A DNA stretch of 28,912 nucleotides from a virus. Location of the stretch: the IMG/VR virus record IMGVR_UViG_3300042520_000850, positions 1-28,912 of that record. The stretch is one strand, 5' to 3'. The notes under the pieces are model-generated. The model saw only the letters and a program-made list of their open reading frames with translations. It did not search any database and was not told where the DNA came from. Each line of letters opens with the position of its first letter. The stretch's first letter is position 1. The position numbers and the translations under genes were made by a program. Positions 7,819 through 22,325 of the stretch are shown here, piece after piece.

Positions 7819-10800
7819 ATGGCAAATACATTAAGATTTAAAAGGGGTTTAGCGAGTGGGATTCCTACGGCATTAGCTGGTGAGCCACTATTCACAACCG
7901 ACACCTTTGATTTATACATAGGCAACGGAACGACTAACACTCGCTTCCAAAAGTACATTGCTTCGGGTGCGACTACGCAGATTCTAAGAGGTGATGGTAG
8001 CTTATACACGTTCCCTTTGGCGATTAGTTCACCTTCAAATGGGCAAGTGCTAAAATACAACGGCACATCTTGGGTGAATGATAGCGATAGTGGGATAACG
8101 GGTTCGCTAACAACGAACTATTTGCCTAAAGCGACGGGTGCGACAACGCTTGGGAATAGTTTGGTGTATGATAATGGAACGAATGTATTAATAGGCACAA
8201 CAACTGCTCCAACATCAAGTGACGTAAAAATATTATTGAATAGTGCTGGAGGTTCATTTGTAGGATTTGGATTTAATGGGTTAGCTGGTTCTGCAATAGG
8301 TTCTACCGCAGCATCTAATATGGTATTTTTTACGGCAACTGGTTCTCTTGGTTCTGAATCATACACTGAACGTGCAAGATTTGATGCATCTGGAAATCTT
8401 GGACTTGGAGTAACCCCAGCAGCTTGGAGAAATTTATTTAACACTTTTCAAGTTGGTTATACTGGTGCTTTATATTCATTAACAGTTGCAAATGCAACAG
8501 AGCAAGTTAACTTAGCATCAAACTATTATCAAAATTCTGCTGGTAATGAATTGAGAATACAAGCTGGTTTTGCTACAAGGTATCAACAAGGTAGTGGATT
8601 ACATATTTGGTCAACTGCTGCAAGTTCAACTGCTGGTAGTGGTATTACGTTTACTGAAAATATGCGTATTACTACCTTAAACAACCTCCACATCGGCACA
8701 TTCAGTTCCGATTCGGGCGAGAAGCTACAAGTGGCTGGGACAATGAAGGTGACGGGGGCGAGTTACTTTTCGGATGTTGTTGGTATAGGTGGGTCATCTA
8801 ATGCTTTTTATCCGTTAATTATATATAGAGCTACTGCTGGTGTAGGCTTACAAGTATATAACTCAACAACATATTCACAAATAAGATTGCAGTCAAGTGG
8901 AACAAATCAAAACTCATACCTAACATTTAATGGTACTGGAACTGGTAGAGCGATTATACAAGTTAATGATACAGATAGACTAACCATAGATACATCTGGC
9001 AATCTCGGTCTGGGTGTGACTCCGAGTGCGTGGAGGAGTGCTTATAAGGCTTTTCAAATTAATCCACAAGCAAGTTTAGTATCAAGTGGAGGGAACTTTT
9101 ATTTAGGAGTTAACTGGTATCAAGATAGTGGAGTTGTTAATAGGTATATTGCTAATGGACCATCTGTGTTTTTTGGTTCTGATGATGGTGGGTCATATAG
9201 TTGGAGAATAGCCCCATCTGGCACTGCTGGAAACGCAATCACCTTCACCCAAGCAATGACACTTGATGCGAGTGGGAATTTAGGTGTGGGGGCAACAAGT
9301 CCTCAAGGAAAATTACATATTGCTCAAAGCTCAAGTGGTATTATATTTAGTCAAGATGGAACGACTGCTACAATAGTAGGTACAAATGCTGCTGGTACTG
9401 CTTCACAAGGATTATTTTTAAGAGGATTTCCTATTACTTTCACTGGTAATGGAGGTGGTGCAGCAGAACAAATGCGTCTTACTGCACTCGGTAATCTCCA
9501 CATCGGAACATTCTCATCCGATAGCGGAGAGAAACTCCAAGTCAACGGCACTGCGAAGATAACGGGTGCGTTGACGACAATTGGGGCAATAATAACTGGT
9601 ACAAATGCAGTTTATTTAAATAGTTATATTAGGGGGGCATCTACTGGGTTTATTGTAAATAATAATGCTGATACTGAAAACAACTTTATAATTTCAGATA
9701 ATGGAAATACAAGAGTAATTAGAGGTTCATTAACAATAGGTTCAACAGTTGGAACTGGTACTGGTGCTTTATTTGCTGGTGCAGCCACATTCAGTAGTAG
9801 TGTGACGGCTAAAGGAACTTTAACTATTGGAGATGCTGGTGTAACAAATGCAATAATAAATTCCGCAGATGGAATGTATTTTAACATTGACTCTGATGCG
9901 TCAGGAAGTACACCAGAGTTTATGTTTGGTAAAGGAAGAAGTGGTGCTGGGGCTGGTGGTACTACGTTTATGACAATTACAAACGCAGGTAATGTGGGGA
10001 TAGGAACGGTGAATCCGACAACTAAGGTTCATATCATTGACAATAATCCATTATCTCTTGGTGATAGTACTGGTTCGCTAACTATTGCTTATGAGTCAGC
10101 ATCACCTGCCATTGGAATGGGTGGAGGTATGTTTCTTGCTATTCCAGCAAGTGGTGGTTCGTTTTTTAGTACATATATAAAATCTGCAAGAGAATCAGCA
10201 GATAGTGCAAATAGTGCAGCAGCTTTGGTTTTTGGAACTCGTATAAATGGTGGCTCTAACACCGAACGTATGCGTATCACAAGTGGTGGTGATGTAGGTA
10301 TCGGAATGACACCATCATACAAACTTGATGTAACGGGTTCTGCAAGGGTATCAGATGCTATCGCAATCGGCACAACACCAGACACTAACAATCCGTTCAA
10401 GATATTGAAAAATATCAACGCAACGGTTGGTATTAAGTTTGAGAATACAAACACTTCATCAAGTGCATTTAGTGCGGTGCAGCTTGGTACGGATGTAAAT
10501 GGAGGAACAAAGTTCACTAATCTTGTGTATTCATCAAGTGGAATTAGTGCGAGTGGTGTTTATAATCCCGATGGTACATCATTAATCAACAATGGTAACG
10601 GAGGTTTGAACTTCTTAGGCAACCCTATTAGAATGTATACGGGTGGTTCAAATGGTGTGCTTAGATGGGATTTAGTGAATGATGGTTATATTACTCATTA
10701 TTCTGCAACTTCTCCAACAACAAGTGCAGCCGATAGTTATAGACAATACTCGGCTGACGTAACTGCTGGTAACGCTGCTCCACACTTTAGAACTGAAAAT

Positions 10801-10956
10801 GGGGCGGTGATTAAGTTGTACCAAGAAACAACTGCGGTGGGTAACTCAACAATAAGTGTTGGTGGAGGTAATGCGGTGTTAGACGATACGGAGTTTGGTG
10901 GCTACACGCTTAGACAAGTTGTAAAAGCATTACAGAATCAAGGTATATTAGCTTAA
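7819..10956 (+). CDS. Large tail fibre protein with Mtd-like N terminus (1045 aa)
   Basis: ATG at 7819 follows a 35-bp AT-rich gap. Residues 1-40 (MANTLRFKRGLASGIPTALA, then GEPLFTTDTFDLYIGNGTTN) match the short N-terminal module of major tropism determinant-like and other fibre proteins, with its R-x-K-R-G start and DTx(D/R)LYIGNG core. The rest alternates beta-helical segments with recurring units: D(A/T)SGNLGLGVTP(A/S)AWR twice, NLHIGTFSSDSGEKLQV twice, and NVGIGTVNPTTKVHI, DVGIGMTPSYKLDVTGSARV. These GI(G)T-P-x-x-KL-V repeats are known from long phage fibres and bacteriophage-like adhesins. The end, GGYTLRQVVKALQNQGILA, is a helix that may trimerise the fibre; no S74 peptidase dyad is seen. 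No template repeat or reverse transcriptase is present, so tropism switching is not indicated. Confidence 0.8.
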   Translation: MANTLRFKRGLASGIPTALAGEPLFTTDTFDLYIGNGTTNTRFQKYIASGATTQILRGDGSLYTFPLAISSPSNGQVLKYNGTSWVNDSDSGITGSLTTNYLPKATGATTLGNSLVYDNGTNVLIGTTTAPTSSDVKILLNSAGGSFVGFGFNGLAGSAIGSTAASNMVFFTATGSLGSESYTERARFDASGNLGLGVTPAAWRNLFNTFQVGYTGALYSLTVANATEQVNLASNYYQNSAGNELRIQAGFATRYQQGSGLHIWSTAASSTAGSGITFTENMRITTLNNLHIGTFSSDSGEKLQVAGTMKVTGASYFSDVVGIGGSSNAFYPLIIYRATAGVGLQVYNSTTYSQIRLQSSGTNQNSYLTFNGTGTGRAIIQVNDTDRLTIDTSGNLGLGVTPSAWRSAYKAFQINPQASLVSSGGNFYLGVNWYQDSGVVNRYIANGPSVFFGSDDGGSYSWRIAPSGTAGNAITFTQAMTLDASGNLGVGATSPQGKLHIAQSSSGIIFSQDGTTATIVGTNAAGTASQGLFLRGFPITFTGNGGGAAEQMRLTALGNLHIGTFSSDSGEKLQVNGTAKITGALTTIGAIITGTNAVYLNSYIRGASTGFIVNNNADTENNFIISDNGNTRVIRGSLTIGSTVGTGTGALFAGAATFSSSVTAKGTLTIGDAGVTNAIINSADGMYFNIDSDASGSTPEFMFGKGRSGAGAGGTTFMTITNAGNVGIGTVNPTTKVHIIDNNPLSLGDSTGSLTIAYESASPAIGMGGGMFLAIPASGGSFFSTYIKSARESADSANSAAALVFGTRINGGSNTERMRITSGGDVGIGMTPSYKLDVTGSARVSDAIAIGTTPDTNNPFKILKNINATVGIKFENTNTSSSAFSAVQLGTDVNGGTKFTNLVYSSSGISASGVYNPDGTSLINNGNGGLNFLGNPIRMYTGGSNGVLRWDLVNDGYITHYSATSPTTSAADSYRQYSADVTAGNAAPHFRTENGAVIKLYQETTAVGNSTISVGGGNAVLDDTEFGGYTLRQVVKALQNQGILA
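8383..9570 (+). repeat. Two pairs of duplicated units in the large fibre gene
   Basis: Unit B: 8383-8454 and 8989-9060, each 24 codons, encodes D(A/T)SGNLGLGVTP(A/S)AWR and ends in FQ(V/I). Unit A: 8683-8760 and 9493-9570, each 26 codons, encodes NLHIGTFSSDSGEKLQV then GT-x-K-(V/I)TGA. Unit A copies are visibly GC-richer than the AT-rich segments between them. The order B-A-B-A with unlike inserts suggests modules joined at shared short units. Confidence 0.75.
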
Positions 10957-16880: not shown

Positions 16881-16993
16881 CTAGATTAATAGCATACATA
16901 TTTATTTTAATTATTACTGTAATAGTTTGGTTCTTCTTTTTTTATGGTGTTATTAAATTCTTACAAGAATGCAGTTGCGAGACTATCAAATAA
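16877..16993 (+). CDS. Small single-pass membrane peptide (38 aa)
   Basis: ATGA overlap with the previous gene; the product is MTRLIAYIFILIITVIVWFF, then FFYGVIKFLQECSCETIK. Residues 4-27 form one membrane helix, and the short tail holds two cysteines (CSC). It overlaps the helicase start by 25 bases. The position and start context make it likely real. It could be a small superinfection-exclusion or membrane-perturbing peptide; nothing in the sequence decides. Confidence 0.55.
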   Translation: MTRLIAYIFILIITVIVWFFFFYGVIKFLQECSCETIK

Positions 16994-18201
16994 AGTTGTC
17001 TGATAAGGCAACACAGATATTAAATGATTATGGCTTGGTTTACCTTGCTATGGAGGTAAGAACCGGAAAGACCCTAACCGCCTTTGTTACGGCACATAAG
17101 TTTGGTGCTAAGAGGGTGTTGTTTGTAACAAAGAAGAAAGCCATTGATGACATCATTGCTCAAGGCAAGAAGATGGGGTTTGACTTAGAGATTTATGTAA
17201 CTAATTATGAGCAGTTGCATAATGTGAATGAAGAGTTTGATCTTGTCATAATCGATGAGGCACATTCATTAGGAGCATTCCCAACACCATCACTTAAAGC
17301 AAAAGAATTAAAACGTATATGTAATGGAAAACCAATCATCTTCCTATCGGGGACGCCCACTCCCGAAAGCTTCTCTCAGATCTTCCATCAGACCTGGGTA
17401 TCGTCTTTTAGTCCTTTTAAAGATTACAAAAATTTTTATGGGTGGGCAAAAGATTACGTTGACATACGCAAAAAATATTTGTATGGTAAAACGATTAATG
17501 ATTACTCAATGGCAAAAAGAGAACTTATTGAAGAAAAGACGAACCATTTATTCCTTGCCTTTACCCAAGAACAAGCTGGGTTCACGGAACTTGTGAAGGA
17601 AAATGTTTTATATGTTAAAATGGAAGATAACACTTACAAGTTTGCAGAGCGGCTTAGAATTGATAAAGTTATCACCAACAAGGAAGGAAATAGTGTTTTA
17701 GGAGATACTGCGGTAAAGCTAATGAACAAACTACACCAAATTTATAGTGGATCGGTAATTATAGATGCACCAGAGCGATACGGCAAGGTGTTTGACTATA
17801 CCAAGGCAGAATTTATCAAGCAATATTTTGCTGGGAAAAAGATTGCCATTTTTTACAAATTCGCAGCCGAGCAAATGGCTATCAAATGGGTGATGGGTAA
17901 GTGTTATGACGATCCCAACGAGTTTAATAATGCTAATGATGGTTGCTTTATATCTCAGATAGTTAGTGGTAGGGAAGGAGTGAATTTAAGCACTGCTGAT
18001 GCGCTTGTGTTTTATAACATTGACTTTAGTGCGACAAGTTACTGGCAAAGTAGAGCAAGGATACAAACCAAAGATAGGACCAAAGAGGCGCAGATATATT
18101 GGATATTTAGTGAAGGTGGAATAGAGGATAAGATATATAAGGCAGTTATGGATAAGCGAGACTATACAACCTCCTATTTCGTAAAAGATTTTGGTCTTTA
18201 A
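16969..18201 (+). CDS. SF2 DNA helicase/translocase (410 aa)
   Basis: ATP-driven DNA helicase or translocase of superfamily 2, SNF2/DEAD-like. Motifs: Q-like start MQLRDYQIKLSDKA; Walker A MEVRTGKTLTA (residues 28-38); motif Ia VLFVTKKKAI; Walker B DLVIIDEAHSLG (DEAH 96-99); motif III IIFLSGTPTPES (SGT 127-129); motif V QIVSGREGVNLSTADALVFY; motif VI SYWQSRARIQTKDR. The two RecA-like lobes are compact, 410 residues, with no added nuclease. Phage homologues act in replication restart or recombination alongside nucleases and SSB, consistent with the neighbours here. A 90-codon frame in the +1 phase at 17324-17596 is judged a shadow. Confidence 0.85.
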   Translation: MQLRDYQIKLSDKATQILNDYGLVYLAMEVRTGKTLTAFVTAHKFGAKRVLFVTKKKAIDDIIAQGKKMGFDLEIYVTNYEQLHNVNEEFDLVIIDEAHSLGAFPTPSLKAKELKRICNGKPIIFLSGTPTPESFSQIFHQTWVSSFSPFKDYKNFYGWAKDYVDIRKKYLYGKTINDYSMAKRELIEEKTNHLFLAFTQEQAGFTELVKENVLYVKMEDNTYKFAERLRIDKVITNKEGNSVLGDTAVKLMNKLHQIYSGSVIIDAPERYGKVFDYTKAEFIKQYFAGKKIAIFYKFAAEQMAIKWVMGKCYDDPNEFNNANDGCFISQIVSGREGVNLSTADALVFYNIDFSATSYWQSRARIQTKDRTKEAQIYWIFSEGGIEDKIYKAVMDKRDYTTSYFVKDFGL

Positions 18202-18252: not shown

Positions 18253-18675
18253 ATGTCACAACAACAACACTTGACTCGCAAACTCGACTGCACGATTGCT
18301 TACTTACCAAAGTATTTAGGATTATCAGATGACTCTTATGAAATTAGAGCCGAGGTTGAGGATTTAAGATGCTTTTGGTATAGCGACTACTCAGCGAACC
18401 ACAACCAAGCATATTTTGAGGTTGGTCACATTAGAACGGATTTTTTCGTAAATTTTCAAATACCTTTGGATGAACTCACCCAAGACGAGATTGCAATGCT
18501 AAAGGTTAGATGGGTGTGTTATGAGGATGCTGATACGTTGTATGGTAGTGTGCCATTTACAACTGACAACAACACAATACCAGAGGTTGATTTTGATGTG
18601 GAGGTAAAAGGTGGTATAATACAACCAATAGAACTAATTTTTCACGTTGACCAAGGATGGTTGCAAATTAAATAA
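18253..18675 (+). CDS. Hypothetical protein behind a promoter (140 aa)
   Basis: ATG at 18253 follows a candidate promoter. The protein is acidic and strand-rich: TRKLDCTIAYLPKYLGLSDD, EVEDLRCFWYSDYSANHNQA, and a middle ELTQDEIAMLKVRWVCYEDAD. It has no signal peptide, membrane helix or obvious active site, and only scattered cysteines (residues 13, 39 and 88). I do not recognise the family. It stands as the first gene of a unit that continues with the cytosine methyltransferase. Confidence 0.5.
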   Translation: MSQQQHLTRKLDCTIAYLPKYLGLSDDSYEIRAEVEDLRCFWYSDYSANHNQAYFEVGHIRTDFFVNFQIPLDELTQDEIAMLKVRWVCYEDADTLYGSVPFTTDNNTIPEVDFDVEVKGGIIQPIELIFHVDQGWLQIK

Positions 18676-18676
18676 T

Positions 18677-19582
18677 ATGAGGCACGGATCATTATTTAGT
18701 GGTATTGGTGGATTCGACCTGGCTGCCGAATGGATGGGATGGGAAAATGTGTTTCATTGCGAATGGAATAAATTTGGACAACAAGTATTAAAATATTACT
18801 GGCCTAAAGCAATAAGTTATGAGGACATCACTAAAACAGACTTCACTATTCACCGAGGTAGCATTGACATCCTTACCGGAGGATTCCCTTGCCAACCATA
18901 TTCAAGTGCAGGAAAGCGACTCGGCAAGGAAGATGAGAGACACCTCTGGCCGGAAATGCTTAGAGCAATTAGAGAAATTCAGCCAAGTTGGGTTGTGGGC
19001 GAAAACGTACGCGGACTTACTAATTGGAATGGAGGGTTGGTATTCGATGAGGTGCAAGTTGAGTTGGAAGCTGAAGGCTACGAAGTCCTCCCGTTTTTAC
19101 TTCCAGCTTGTGCCGTCAACGCACCACATAGAAGAGATAGGATTTGGTTTGTTGCCCACTGTTACAGCAATGGACTCAACGAACGCAACGGCAACAATGA
19201 AGTCAACACAAGTAAAGGAAGGCTCAATGCACTCGGTGACATTAAGCAGAGCAATGGCGATGGGGATGTTGCCGACACCTTGTGCGAGAGATACTCAAGG
19301 ACCACAAGCAATGGAATACAAAAAATGGAAAGGATTGCCACACAATGGAATGCAATCAGTTCCAGGAGTAGTCAGGGAATTAACTGGGTCAACTTCCCAA
19401 CTGTCGCCCCAATTTGTACTGGAGATGATGGGCTTTCCGACCGATTGGACAATATTACCTTTCCTAAATGGAGACAAGAGTCAATAAAGGCTGGAGGCAA
19501 CGCAATAGTCCCACAAGTAGTACATCAAATATTTAAAGCAATAGAAGAATATGAAAGAATCACAACTCCAAACACAAATTAA
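18677..19582 (+). CDS. DNA (cytosine-5-)-methyltransferase (301 aa)
   Basis: I start at ATG 18677, 1 base after the preceding stop; an extension to 18647 would run into the previous gene. It transfers a methyl group from S-adenosylmethionine to C5 of cytosine in phage DNA, likely against host restriction. Motifs in order: I LFSGIGGFDLAAEWMG; IV GGFPCQPYSSAGK with catalytic C72; VI VVGENVRGL (E109); VIII APHRRDRIWFVA; a target-recognition stretch around NFPTVAPICTGDDGL; and X ESIKAGGNAIVPQVV. The set is complete and in canonical order. GC content is higher than that of the flanking genes. A second long frame runs inside codons 48-270. No partner restriction gene is in the window. Confidence 0.9.
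   Translation: MRHGSLFSGIGGFDLAAEWMGWENVFHCEWNKFGQQVLKYYWPKAISYEDITKTDFTIHRGSIDILTGGFPCQPYSSAGKRLGKEDERHLWPEMLRAIREIQPSWVVGENVRGLTNWNGGLVFDEVQVELEAEGYEVLPFLLPACAVNAPHRRDRIWFVAHCYSNGLNERNGNNEVNTSKGRLNALGDIKQSNGDGDVADTLCERYSRTTSNGIQKMERIATQWNAISSRSSQGINWVNFPTVAPICTGDDGLSDRLDNITFPKWRQESIKAGGNAIVPQVVHQIFKAIEEYERITTPNTN
18819..19487 (+). CDS. Nested overlapping ORF inside the methyltransferase, methyltransferase-companion type (222 aa)
   Basis: An ATG-started frame, +1 relative to the methyltransferase, runs 222 codons without a stop, from codon 48 of that gene to its last third. The product begins MRTSLKQTSLFTE and continues DTSGRKCLEQLEKFSQVGLW, WYSMRCKLSWKLKATKS, RFYFQLVPSTHHIEEIGFG, LLPTVTAMD (residues 111-119), LPTPCARD (151-158), SQLSPQFVLEMMGFPTDW (193-210). 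From memory, phage proteins near cytosine methyltransferases show the same 'SGRK-C, CxL(S/T)WK-K-T, FQLVPS, LLPTPTA.D, LNPxFVExxMGFPxxWT' order. Its ending in LPFLNG(D/E) also fits. Function unknown. It has no promoter of its own; translation would come from the methyltransferase transcript. Confidence 0.6.
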   Translation: MRTSLKQTSLFTEVALTSLPEDSLANHIQVQESDSARKMRDTSGRKCLEQLEKFSQVGLWAKTYADLLIGMEGWYSMRCKLSWKLKATKSSRFYFQLVPSTHHIEEIGFGLLPTVTAMDSTNATATMKSTQVKEGSMHSVTLSRAMAMGMLPTPCARDTQGPQAMEYKKWKGLPHNGMQSVPGVVRELTGSTSQLSPQFVLEMMGFPTDWTILPFLNGDKSQ

Positions 19583-19823
19583 AAACAGACTAACCAAGCA
19601 CGGATGGTTGGTGGTCAAGATTATCAGTTCATCAATGAATGGCATCCCAGACCTTATGTGCATTCGCAAGGGTGTGGTGATATTTTTAGAGGTTAAGACC
19701 GATGTCGGAGTGGTTGCGCCACTACAAGAGTATGTAATGAAAGTTTTAAATAGCCATCAAGTACATAGTAGAGTAGTAAAATCGGTAGAAGATATTGATG
19801 TTTATTGTCATAAAACATATTAA
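19551..19823 (+). CDS. VRR-NUC domain nuclease (90 aa)
   Basis: A complete small PD-(D/E)XK nuclease of the VRR-NUC type, which resolves or nicks branched DNA in related systems. Core: MNGIPDLMCIRKG (D34), VVIFLEVKTDVG (E47, K49), then APLQEYVMKVLNSHQV (Q59). The helix before the core (ESQLQTQIKNRLTKHGW) is the usual N-terminal part. The ATG at 19551 lies inside the methyltransferase end (32-base overlap). Stand-alone VRR-NUC proteins are common in phage recombination/replication regions, and this one precedes the primase-helicase. Confidence 0.85.
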   Translation: MKESQLQTQIKNRLTKHGWLVVKIISSSMNGIPDLMCIRKGVVIFLEVKTDVGVVAPLQEYVMKVLNSHQVHSRVVKSVEDIDVYCHKTY

Positions 19824-19826
19824 TAA

Positions 19827-22325
19827 ATGCACACTAAATACTTAGACTTTGGAGTTAATGTTATTGCGGTTAATGATAAGAAACAAGCAATATTCCCGTG
19901 GAAGGATTATCAATCCAAGCAAATAACGAAAGATGAATTAGAGAAGCAAATGGCTGATCCACGAGCTAAAGGAATCGCAGTAATTTGCGGAGCAGTTAGT
20001 GGAGGACTTGAGGTTATTGACATTGATACGAAGTATGAAACTTTCCCACTTTGGGAACAGATTAAGACTAAGATACCTCAAGATATTTTTGATAAGTTAC
20101 ACATTGTTGAGACTAAGAGCAATGGCTACCATCTTTATTATAAATGTGAGGAGATAGAAGGCAACCAAAAGTTAGCACAAAGGCTGCCGACAAATGAGGA
20201 GTTGAAGTCATCCCCACAAATCAAAACTTATTGCATCATCGAGACAAGAGGTGAGGCTGGGTATGTGGTGGCGCCGCCATCAGAAGGCTATACCATCGTG
20301 CAGAAAGGTATTAATATTATTACCATTGAAGAGAGGTCGACATTGTTTGAAGTGATGCGCAGTTTTAATGAAATAATTGAGGAGCAAATAATTGAAGCGC
20401 ATCAGCGACCAAGCACGAAGGATTATGGTGTATCGCCATTTGAGGATTATAACAAGAGAGGGGATGTGTCGGCATTATTGCAGTCACACGGATGGACAAT
20501 AGTGAAGGAGAATAGTGAGAGGGTGTATTATTTACGACCAGGTAGCAAGGCTGAACATAGTGGATCATACAATAAGAGCTTAGGCTTGTTTAGTGTATTC
20601 TCTGTCAACACACCATTTACTCCTCAGAAGGGTTATAGACCCGCTATTGTTTACGCTATACTTGAACACAATGCAGACTACAAAAAAGCAGCCAAAGCAC
20701 TCCTCGAGCAAGGCTACGGAGAAAAAAAAACCTCAGACCGACTCGAACGAACTCTTTTTAATAAAAAGCAAAATGGAGCTACAAAGGACGAACTGGTATC
20801 GCTCCTCGTCCAGTCCCATCGGAAATCTGTCTCGGATGCAACGGAAATGGTAGATAACCTTGAGCAAAGGTGGGGCGAGCAAATTTGCACCTTTTGGGAT
20901 GTATCCGAACAAGATAGGCTCACCATCAACCGCTATAAGCTGCAAGTGTTTCTAACCACAGTAGGAGGCTTTAGGCTTTATTTCTATGACCAAAATAGCA
21001 CGATTTATAGATTGGTAAGGATAAAGGATGGTTTTGTAGAAGAGTCCTCCACAGAGCAAATAAAACGCTTTATAAAGGATTATATTGATAGGCTACCTGA
21101 TAGTTTTGATGGTGGAATTACGCCACAAGATCTACTTGAACACATCTATCGTGGTGCATCAGCTTTATTTTCTGATGCTTTCTTTGAGTTTTTTGATAGG
21201 GCAGATATTAATTTTCTGCAAGACGCACAAGATACTTCCTACTTCCCATTTAAAAATGGTGTGGTGTGTGTTAGTAAGAACAAGATAGAACTCAAGACGT
21301 ATGGTGAATTAAACAAATTTGTTTGGAAAACACAAATCATCGACCACCATATTTATGTTGATGATGGCTCGATAAAATTAGAGGAGATTGAATATTATAA
21401 ATTTTTGCATTATATCAGCGGTGAAGAGTCAGAGAGGCTTATGTATGCCATCACACTGATTGGATACTTATTACATACCTATAAAGACCCCTCCCGCCCG
21501 TTCTCGGTTATTCTTGCTGAAGAGACTGAGAATGAGGCTAATGGAGGAGGCACTGGTAAGGGGATTTTTGTAAAGGCTCTTGGGCATCTTAGTAACCTGG
21601 TTCGTGTTGATGGTAAGAACTTTAAGGTAGATAAGAACTTTGCCTTTCAGAGGGTAGATCTTGATACAAGGATTCTTGCGATTGAAGATACTCGTAGGAA
21701 CGTAGATTTTGAGGGTTTTTATAGCATTATTACTGAAGGAATTACAGTTGAGAAGAAGAATAAGGATGAGCTTTTTATCCCTTATAAGGATAGTCCCAAG
21801 GTTATGTTTACGACCAATTATACCATCCCTAATATGGGCAATCACGCTAAGAGGAGGCAGAAGGTGTTTGAATTTTCGCCATACTTCGGAGCTGGTAAGA
21901 CCCCTGAAGATGTGTTTGGACATAAATTATTTGAAGATTGGGACAAGGATGAGTGGAATAGGTTTTTTAATTTGATGTTTAACTGCGTTCAAATCTACCT
22001 TGAGAGTGGTGTTTTGGCAGTCGAAAATTCGGATAAATTGCTAAGAAAACAAGTCCGTGTCCAGTTCTCGGAGGAGTTTTTAGAGTACTTTTTGGGGGTC
22101 ATTGAAGAGAAGGGAGTGTGGATAAGTAAGGAGCAAATGTATAATGATTTTTTAAATATGACGGGTTTTGAGAAGAAAGAATACTCGATGAAAAGGTTTT
22201 CTAAGGCGATTGACGAATCGTGTACTATTTTAAAAATCGTGTACCAAAGTACGCGATCGAAGGCTCATAATAACAAAAAATGTGTGAAGTTTGTAGAGAC
22301 TGATTTGGTAGAACAAGTATTATGA
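19827..22325 (+). CDS. Bifunctional primase-polymerase / SF3-type replicative helicase (832 aa)
   Basis: The ATG follows the VRR-NUC stop by 3 bases. The N-terminal domain is a primase-polymerase of the archaeo-eukaryotic type: GAVSGGLEVIDIDTKY (D65, D67), SNGYHLYYK (H102), TRGEAGYVVAPPSEGY. A linker of about 250 residues follows. The C-terminal half is a D5/SF3-like ATPase: ENEANGGGTGKGIFVKAL (Walker A 573-579, K578), DTRILAIEDTRRN (Walker B), and KVMFTTNYTIPNMG with the sensor Asn. The two enzymes in one chain start and unwind DNA at the phage origin. Its last third carries two inverted copies of the repeat that forms the iteron cluster, and the cluster follows immediately. Confidence 0.85.
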   Translation: MHTKYLDFGVNVIAVNDKKQAIFPWKDYQSKQITKDELEKQMADPRAKGIAVICGAVSGGLEVIDIDTKYETFPLWEQIKTKIPQDIFDKLHIVETKSNGYHLYYKCEEIEGNQKLAQRLPTNEELKSSPQIKTYCIIETRGEAGYVVAPPSEGYTIVQKGINIITIEERSTLFEVMRSFNEIIEEQIIEAHQRPSTKDYGVSPFEDYNKRGDVSALLQSHGWTIVKENSERVYYLRPGSKAEHSGSYNKSLGLFSVFSVNTPFTPQKGYRPAIVYAILEHNADYKKAAKALLEQGYGEKKTSDRLERTLFNKKQNGATKDELVSLLVQSHRKSVSDATEMVDNLEQRWGEQICTFWDVSEQDRLTINRYKLQVFLTTVGGFRLYFYDQNSTIYRLVRIKDGFVEESSTEQIKRFIKDYIDRLPDSFDGGITPQDLLEHIYRGASALFSDAFFEFFDRADINFLQDAQDTSYFPFKNGVVCVSKNKIELKTYGELNKFVWKTQIIDHHIYVDDGSIKLEEIEYYKFLHYISGEESERLMYAITLIGYLLHTYKDPSRPFSVILAEETENEANGGGTGKGIFVKALGHLSNLVRVDGKNFKVDKNFAFQRVDLDTRILAIEDTRRNVDFEGFYSIITEGITVEKKNKDELFIPYKDSPKVMFTTNYTIPNMGNHAKRRQKVFEFSPYFGAGKTPEDVFGHKLFEDWDKDEWNRFFNLMFNCVQIYLESGVLAVENSDKLLRKQVRVQFSEEFLEYFLGVIEEKGVWISKEQMYNDFLNMTGFEKKEYSMKRFSKAIDESCTILKIVYQSTRSKAHNNKKCVKFVETDLVEQVL

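Follow-up and report, generated by a model that had tools for sequence, protein, structure and literature searches.

What does a reading frame that stays open for 222 codons inside a viral cytosine methyltransferase gene encode, and how is its product related to the methyltransferase itself? The question is raised by the virus record IMGVR_UViG_3300042520_000850, which was analysed over its whole length of 28,912 bases (the window). The original prediction, made from the letters of the DNA, placed an ORF that starts from an ATG and runs from 18819 to 19487 in the +1 frame of the methyltransferase gene, and these coordinates proved exact. We refer to the methyltransferase as alpha and to the nested protein as beta; the features of both, together with neighbouring genes, are as follows.

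16969-18201: helicase gene
18253-18675: ORF of 140 aa, directly upstream of alpha
18677-19582, + strand: alpha, C5-cytosine DNA methyltransferase, 301 aa (ORF from ATG 18677; PF00145; phrog_363)
18695-18712, + strand: alpha motif I (FSGIGG, AdoMet binding), from the sequence
18819-19487, + strand: beta, nested at +1 within alpha, proposed specificity subunit, 222 aa, ATG start (ORF; phrog_1008; selection)
18837-18851, + strand: beta QTSLF, residues 7-11, a sliding-clamp-binding-like QxxLF motif (enrichment in beta N-termini)
18878-18904, + strand: alpha motif IV (GGFPCQPYS, catalytic Cys), from the sequence
18945-19118, + strand: beta N-terminal domain (SGRKCLEQL...FQLVPS), overprinted on alpha motifs IV-VIII (alignments A1 and A2)
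19001-19015, + strand: alpha motif VI (ENVRG), from the sequence
19124-19144, + strand: alpha motif VIII (PHRRDRI), from the sequence
19149-19265, + strand: beta cassette 1 (LLPTVTAMDSTNATATMKSTQVKEGSMHSVTL...), proposed target-recognition unit (cassette family fam0)
19266-19391, + strand: beta cassette 2 (MLPTPCARDTQG...), proposed target-recognition unit (position in A1; cassette counts)
19395-19463, + strand: beta motif IX (SQLSPQFVLEMMGFPTDWTILPF) (in one chain with I-VIII and X in five relatives; hhalign)
19496-19519, + strand: alpha motif X (GNAIVPQV), 3' of the beta stop codon, from the sequence
19551-19823: VRR-NUC/Hjc-type nuclease gene
19827-22325: prim-pol protein gene

The 140-aa ORF gave no match in PHROG or Pfam. 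Its stop codon ends one base ahead of the alpha ATG, so the two genes are probably cotranscribed. At the other end, the last 32 bases of alpha (19551-19582) are overlapped by the start of the nuclease gene. Farther from alpha, the window holds endolysin, polymerase exonuclease, terminase and portal genes.

Methyltransferase motifs in two frames

Motifs I, IV, VI, VIII and X of the PF00145 family are all present in alpha. The match to PF00145 itself (E = 4e-46) covers residues 1-221 and stops at profile position 227 of 324; phrog_363 matches with E = 4e-71, and in a phmmer comparison with M.HhaI only residues 3-171 of alpha were covered. Motif IX and a constrained target-recognition region are absent from alpha, as judged from the PF00145 and M.HhaI matches and from the selection counts given below, so that alpha alone is only part of a member of this family. 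From motif VIII to motif X, alpha shows no conservation at the protein level. The motifs are thus partitioned: alpha carries I-VIII and X, and beta carries LPTPxxxD cassettes followed by motif IX (QLSPQFVLEMMGFPTDW). We take the C-terminal end of beta, QLSPQFVLEMMGFPTDWT, to resemble motif IX of C5 methyltransferases.

Relatives that join these parts in one chain bear on this assignment. At five loci (L285, L291, L308, L309 and L311) motifs I-VIII, the cassettes, IX and X all lie in one ORF, and a beta profile compared by hhalign matched two of them, L309 (97.5%, E = 6e-12) and L308 (97.7%, E = 2e-12); the profile comparison was needed, since a BLASTP comparison of beta with the single L309 sequence scored weakly (E = 1e-5). 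The predicted structure of the L308 chain (pLDDT 85, pTM 0.86), a good model even though the folding alignment misplaces motif VIII of the alpha rows, has a C5-methyltransferase fold and aligns end to end with M.HhaI (6-343 / 10-327; Z 24.5, r.m.s.d. 2.8, 256 residues). The beta-type segment therefore occupies the place of the M.HhaI small domain.

Assigning architectures by the location of motif X gave three classes. Nesting of the window type, with I-VIII and X in alpha and cassettes and IX in beta, was found at 224 distinct loci, and in 54 further nested loci the motif-X pattern was recognised in neither ORF. About 21 loci are AquI-like, with a second ORF, at +1, that holds cassettes, IX and X and overlaps the end of alpha, and the five loci named above have everything in one frame. 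These five were considered as ancestral single chains, a reading that we rejected: over the catalytic domain their +1 frame is still open and keeps the beta N-terminal signature (E = 7e-13 to 4e-4), and they are therefore probably later fusions of split forms. The frame changes near the start of a cassette, and a further cassette-like stretch stands in the +1 frame; these loci could be fusions or cases of programmed frameshifting. Four other candidates for one-frame versions (L250, L272, L279 and L104) were set aside as apparently frame-broken or gap-filled copies.

Searches of Pfam and NCBIfam with beta gave no match, and searches of the PDB (phmmer and profile) returned chance matches only. 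AlphaFold predicted beta alone with low confidence (pLDDT 66, pTM 0.35), as would fit, without proving, a part that needs a partner. Foldseek and VIA-align found no usable match for this model; no C5 methyltransferase was listed, which is uninformative at such model quality.

Conservation of and selection on the nested frame

Beta is a real conserved protein, and its overlap with alpha is widespread and ancient in phages. Beta matches phrog_1008 (E = 4e-22), and searches recovered homologues from 69 phage records of GenBank as well as from hundreds of contigs in IMG/VR and genomes in GTDB. Nearly all of the first 80 loci (76 of which were used) have beta at +1 to an intact alpha. Overall, 394 of 417 loci are nested at +1, a count in which the presence of beta is partly ascertained, most loci having been fetched with beta as the query, whereas the overlap with an intact alpha is not. 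Among about 400 relatives, which come from phages and prophages of Bacteroidota, Bacillota and Pseudomonadota, nearly all keep the beta frame open, always at +1. In the phylum of one locus from Burkholderiaceae (L120), 26 of 398 sampled genomes matched, and all 12 that were read out (L420-L431) are nested at +1.

An open frame of this length is not expected from the codons of alpha. When these were shuffled within identical amino acids, the stretch in the window acquired a mean of 8.46 stops and was free of stops in 0 of 300 shuffles. The same procedure in 62 distinct relatives gave a mean of 7.45 expected stops in the beta frame, against an observed 0 of 62 stretches with a stop; the +2 frame of alpha in these relatives has about 23 stops.

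Selection was assessed by dN/dS-type counts with an OLGenie-like method of our own implementation (not the published program), over all pairs and then over 29 disjoint sister pairs with bootstrap. The two sets of counts agree, and values for the sister pairs are given here. In the recognition region, dNN/dNS for beta was 0.08 (0.07-0.10) and dNN/dSN for alpha was 0.92 (0.66-1.88). Both frames are constrained in the motif IX region (beta 0.11, alpha 0.27), and over motifs IV-VIII alpha stands at 0.03 and beta dNN/dNS at 0.18. The beta ratios within the overlap are well below the baseline, since control regions read by alpha only gave an apparent beta ratio of 0.34-0.53. Codon positions were also compared: the ratio of position 3 to the mean of positions 1 and 2 of alpha codons was 3.7-3.9 in the alpha-only parts, as in a normal gene, and 0.73 and 0.83 in the recognition and motif-IX regions, respectively. 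Alpha position 3 is beta position 2, and for this reason it is no longer the fast site between VIII and X. Both proteins are under purifying selection, and beta dominates between motifs VIII and X, where the DNA is shaped almost entirely by beta and alpha reads it as a near-neutral linker.

The open frame in relatives and the selection on both frames bear out the original prediction that two conserved proteins share the same DNA; the order that it gave for the peptides of the nested product is also correct. Homologues also exist outside the exact overlap (the one-frame and AquI-like relatives), the +1 frame stays open at related loci and the OLGenie-like count found purifying rather than neutral change in it, three points on which that prediction could have failed. 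Its view of the methyltransferase frame as complete with all motifs does not hold, as I, IV, VI, VIII and X are there but IX lies in the nested frame. Similarly, of the motif VIII and target-recognition region that this frame was said to keep, motif VIII (PHRRDRI) is present, whereas the recognition region is near neutral (alpha 0.92).

Cassettes and a clamp-binding-like peptide in beta

The part of beta that separates the N-terminal domain from motif IX holds, in most cases, 1-7 units with the pattern [LW]PTPxAxD..., many of them about 25-45 aa long, which crude clustering divided into about 440 families. One and the same cassette family recurs at different positions and with different neighbours, in nested as well as AquI-like contexts, and cassette 1 of the window (GSMHSVTL) belongs to a family (fam0) of 67 members with varying neighbours. 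A profile of the beta cassette region also matches the AquI-like L286 (E = 7e-11) and, weakly, the one-frame L309 (E = 1e-4). Exchangeable target-recognition units, as in multispecific phage methyltransferases, would be expected to show this pattern, and we infer that every cassette recognises a separate DNA site. The cassette arrays would then amount to a natural library of putative DNA-recognition units.

A second feature of beta is a short peptide near its N-terminus. QxxLF-type peptides (QLTLF, QISLF, QTSLF) occur there in 145 of 272 distinct betas compared with 3.6 expected when alpha codons are resampled, a 40-fold excess, and the remainder of beta has 2 in 58,075 aa. The peptides are found over either of two alpha segments, TIDIIS or TDFTIH, so the motif has arisen or moved more than once. 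An ATG stands 2-6 codons ahead of the peptide in 50 of 62 close relatives, which supports the annotated start of beta. The QTSLF of the window, a stretch of low confidence in the beta model, matches the terminal QL(S/D)LF-like pattern of sliding-clamp-binding proteins; the bacterial clamp-binding consensus is QL(S/D)LF (PMC9690074). Less firmly than the other parts of this reading, this resemblance suggests that beta may dock on the replication sliding clamp. Such docking would imply methylation coupled to replication, as has been proposed for DNMT1 and PCNA; PCNA is believed to guide DNMT1 (PMC9690074).

Taken to its full extent, this reading would give a replication-coupled, multi-specific phage methyltransferase whose choice of site lies wholly in the nested gene, with docking on the clamp through QxxLF and with swappable cassettes, by which phages would exchange specificities in a stretch that is no more than a neutral linker to the catalytic frame. 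We advance that fuller picture tentatively and consider it possible rather than probable.

A split-enzyme reading, its alternatives and known systems

The most likely reading is that alpha and beta together make up one C5-cytosine DNA methyltransferase, split into two subunits (probability of roughly 0.87), because beta supplies the missing motif IX and recognition region and a fused relative is predicted to fold like M.HhaI. Beta is very probably the half that chooses the DNA site. Alpha would contribute motifs I-VIII, as the domain that binds AdoMet and carries out catalysis, and motif X, as the closing helix; beta, translated from its own ATG within the alpha gene in the +1 frame, would contribute a small domain of one or more target-recognition cassettes with a motif IX that positions them. 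The two would assemble as a heterodimer, in which the beta N-terminal domain possibly makes the contact, and the resulting M.HhaI-like enzyme would methylate phage DNA, presumably so that it evades host restriction. Enzymes of this sort usually serve to protect phage DNA against restriction by the host.

Ribosomes could instead shift from alpha to the +1 frame, or back, to yield an alpha-beta fusion that acts as a single-chain enzyme, with no separate beta. A joined chain is evidently tolerated, as five relatives join cassettes, IX and X to the alpha frame near a cassette boundary, but the conserved ATG ahead of QxxLF and the selected N-terminal domain over motifs IV-VIII, which a fusion after VIII would not need, make frameshifting improbable and favour separate translation from the inner ATG. 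Slightly less probable again is a role for beta as an independent companion to a self-sufficient methyltransferase, such as an anti-restriction protein or one that alters specificity. Such a role would suit a separate ORF beside an alpha that retains its catalytic motifs; alpha has, however, neither motif IX nor a constrained recognition region, and the fused and AquI-like relatives identify the C-terminal half of beta as the very segment that alpha is missing. The original prediction of a companion that alters specificity was therefore right to link beta to specificity, but not to add it to an already complete enzyme. That the +1 frame is a mere by-product of codon and amino-acid conservation in alpha, with no beta protein, would explain why a +1 peptide looks conserved over motif-rich parts of alpha and why beta constraint is weakest over motifs IV-VIII, but it is refuted, barring a bias common to all of these tests, by a stop-free frame where 7-8 stops are expected, by beta being far better conserved than alpha between VIII and X, by the excess of QxxLF over alpha resampling and by the occurrence of beta segments in other frame contexts.

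The split C5 methyltransferase as such is already known. M.AquI and M.EcoHK31I are naturally split, M.AquI between motifs VIII and IX and M.EcoHK31I into a large subunit with I-VIII and X, to which the predicted TRD was assigned, and a small subunit with motif IX only (PMC3404938). M.EcoHK31I (YGGCCR, two polypeptides) is like the window in having IX in the small subunit and X in the large one. The two differ in the TRD, which selection (alpha near neutral, beta constrained between VIII and IX) places in the nested subunit here, and in the cassette arrays and clamp-binding-like peptide of the phage family. Nesting of the small ORF in another frame is seen in the window, and for M.EcoHK31I Lee, Kam and Shaw reportedly described in 1995 a small ORF contained in the large one in a different frame. 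M.AquI (CYCGRG, two polypeptides) has IX and X together in its second ORF, as do the approximately 21 AquI-like relatives, whereas alpha of the window retains motif X and contains the whole of the second gene. Multispecific phage C5 methyltransferases of the phi3T, SPR and SPbeta type carry consecutive recognition units of about 30-45 aa between VIII and IX in a single chain; here the proposed units sit in a second protein and another frame.

The EcoHK31I-like partition is thus known from one laboratory-studied enzyme, and what is new is its spread, the proposed target recognition in the nested frame, the arrays of 1-7 apparently exchangeable cassettes and the sliding-clamp-binding-like motif. 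Literature searches for the alpha/beta overlap in phages found no paper, and PHROGs labels both phrog_1008 (beta) and phrog_363 (alpha) as 'DNA methyltransferase', a label that mentions neither overlap nor subunit status. A deeply conserved same-strand overlap of more than 200 codons, both products of which would be parts of one enzyme, is an instance of overprinting that is rare and open to testing.

Public annotation treats the locus unevenly. In Paenibacillus larvae phages both ORFs are annotated as cytosine methyltransferases, and the genome paper gives two such gene products; in Lactobacillus and Lacticaseibacillus phages alpha alone is annotated, in a marine phage record the alpha annotation is cut to 243 bases and in a Bacteroides plasmid record neither ORF is shown whole. 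Alpha or beta is shortened or omitted in KT997847.1, NZ_OY725930.1 and OP807346.1 (L298, L299 and L081, respectively) because the genes overlap. One half is commonly lost in this way, and predictions of methylation targets from alpha alone would therefore be unreliable.

Elsewhere in the window, a large ORF at 7819-10956 has an Mtd_N domain (major tropism determinant N-terminus, E = 1e-7). Mtd_N proteins are of the tail or receptor-binding type and in other phages are sometimes diversified by retroelements.
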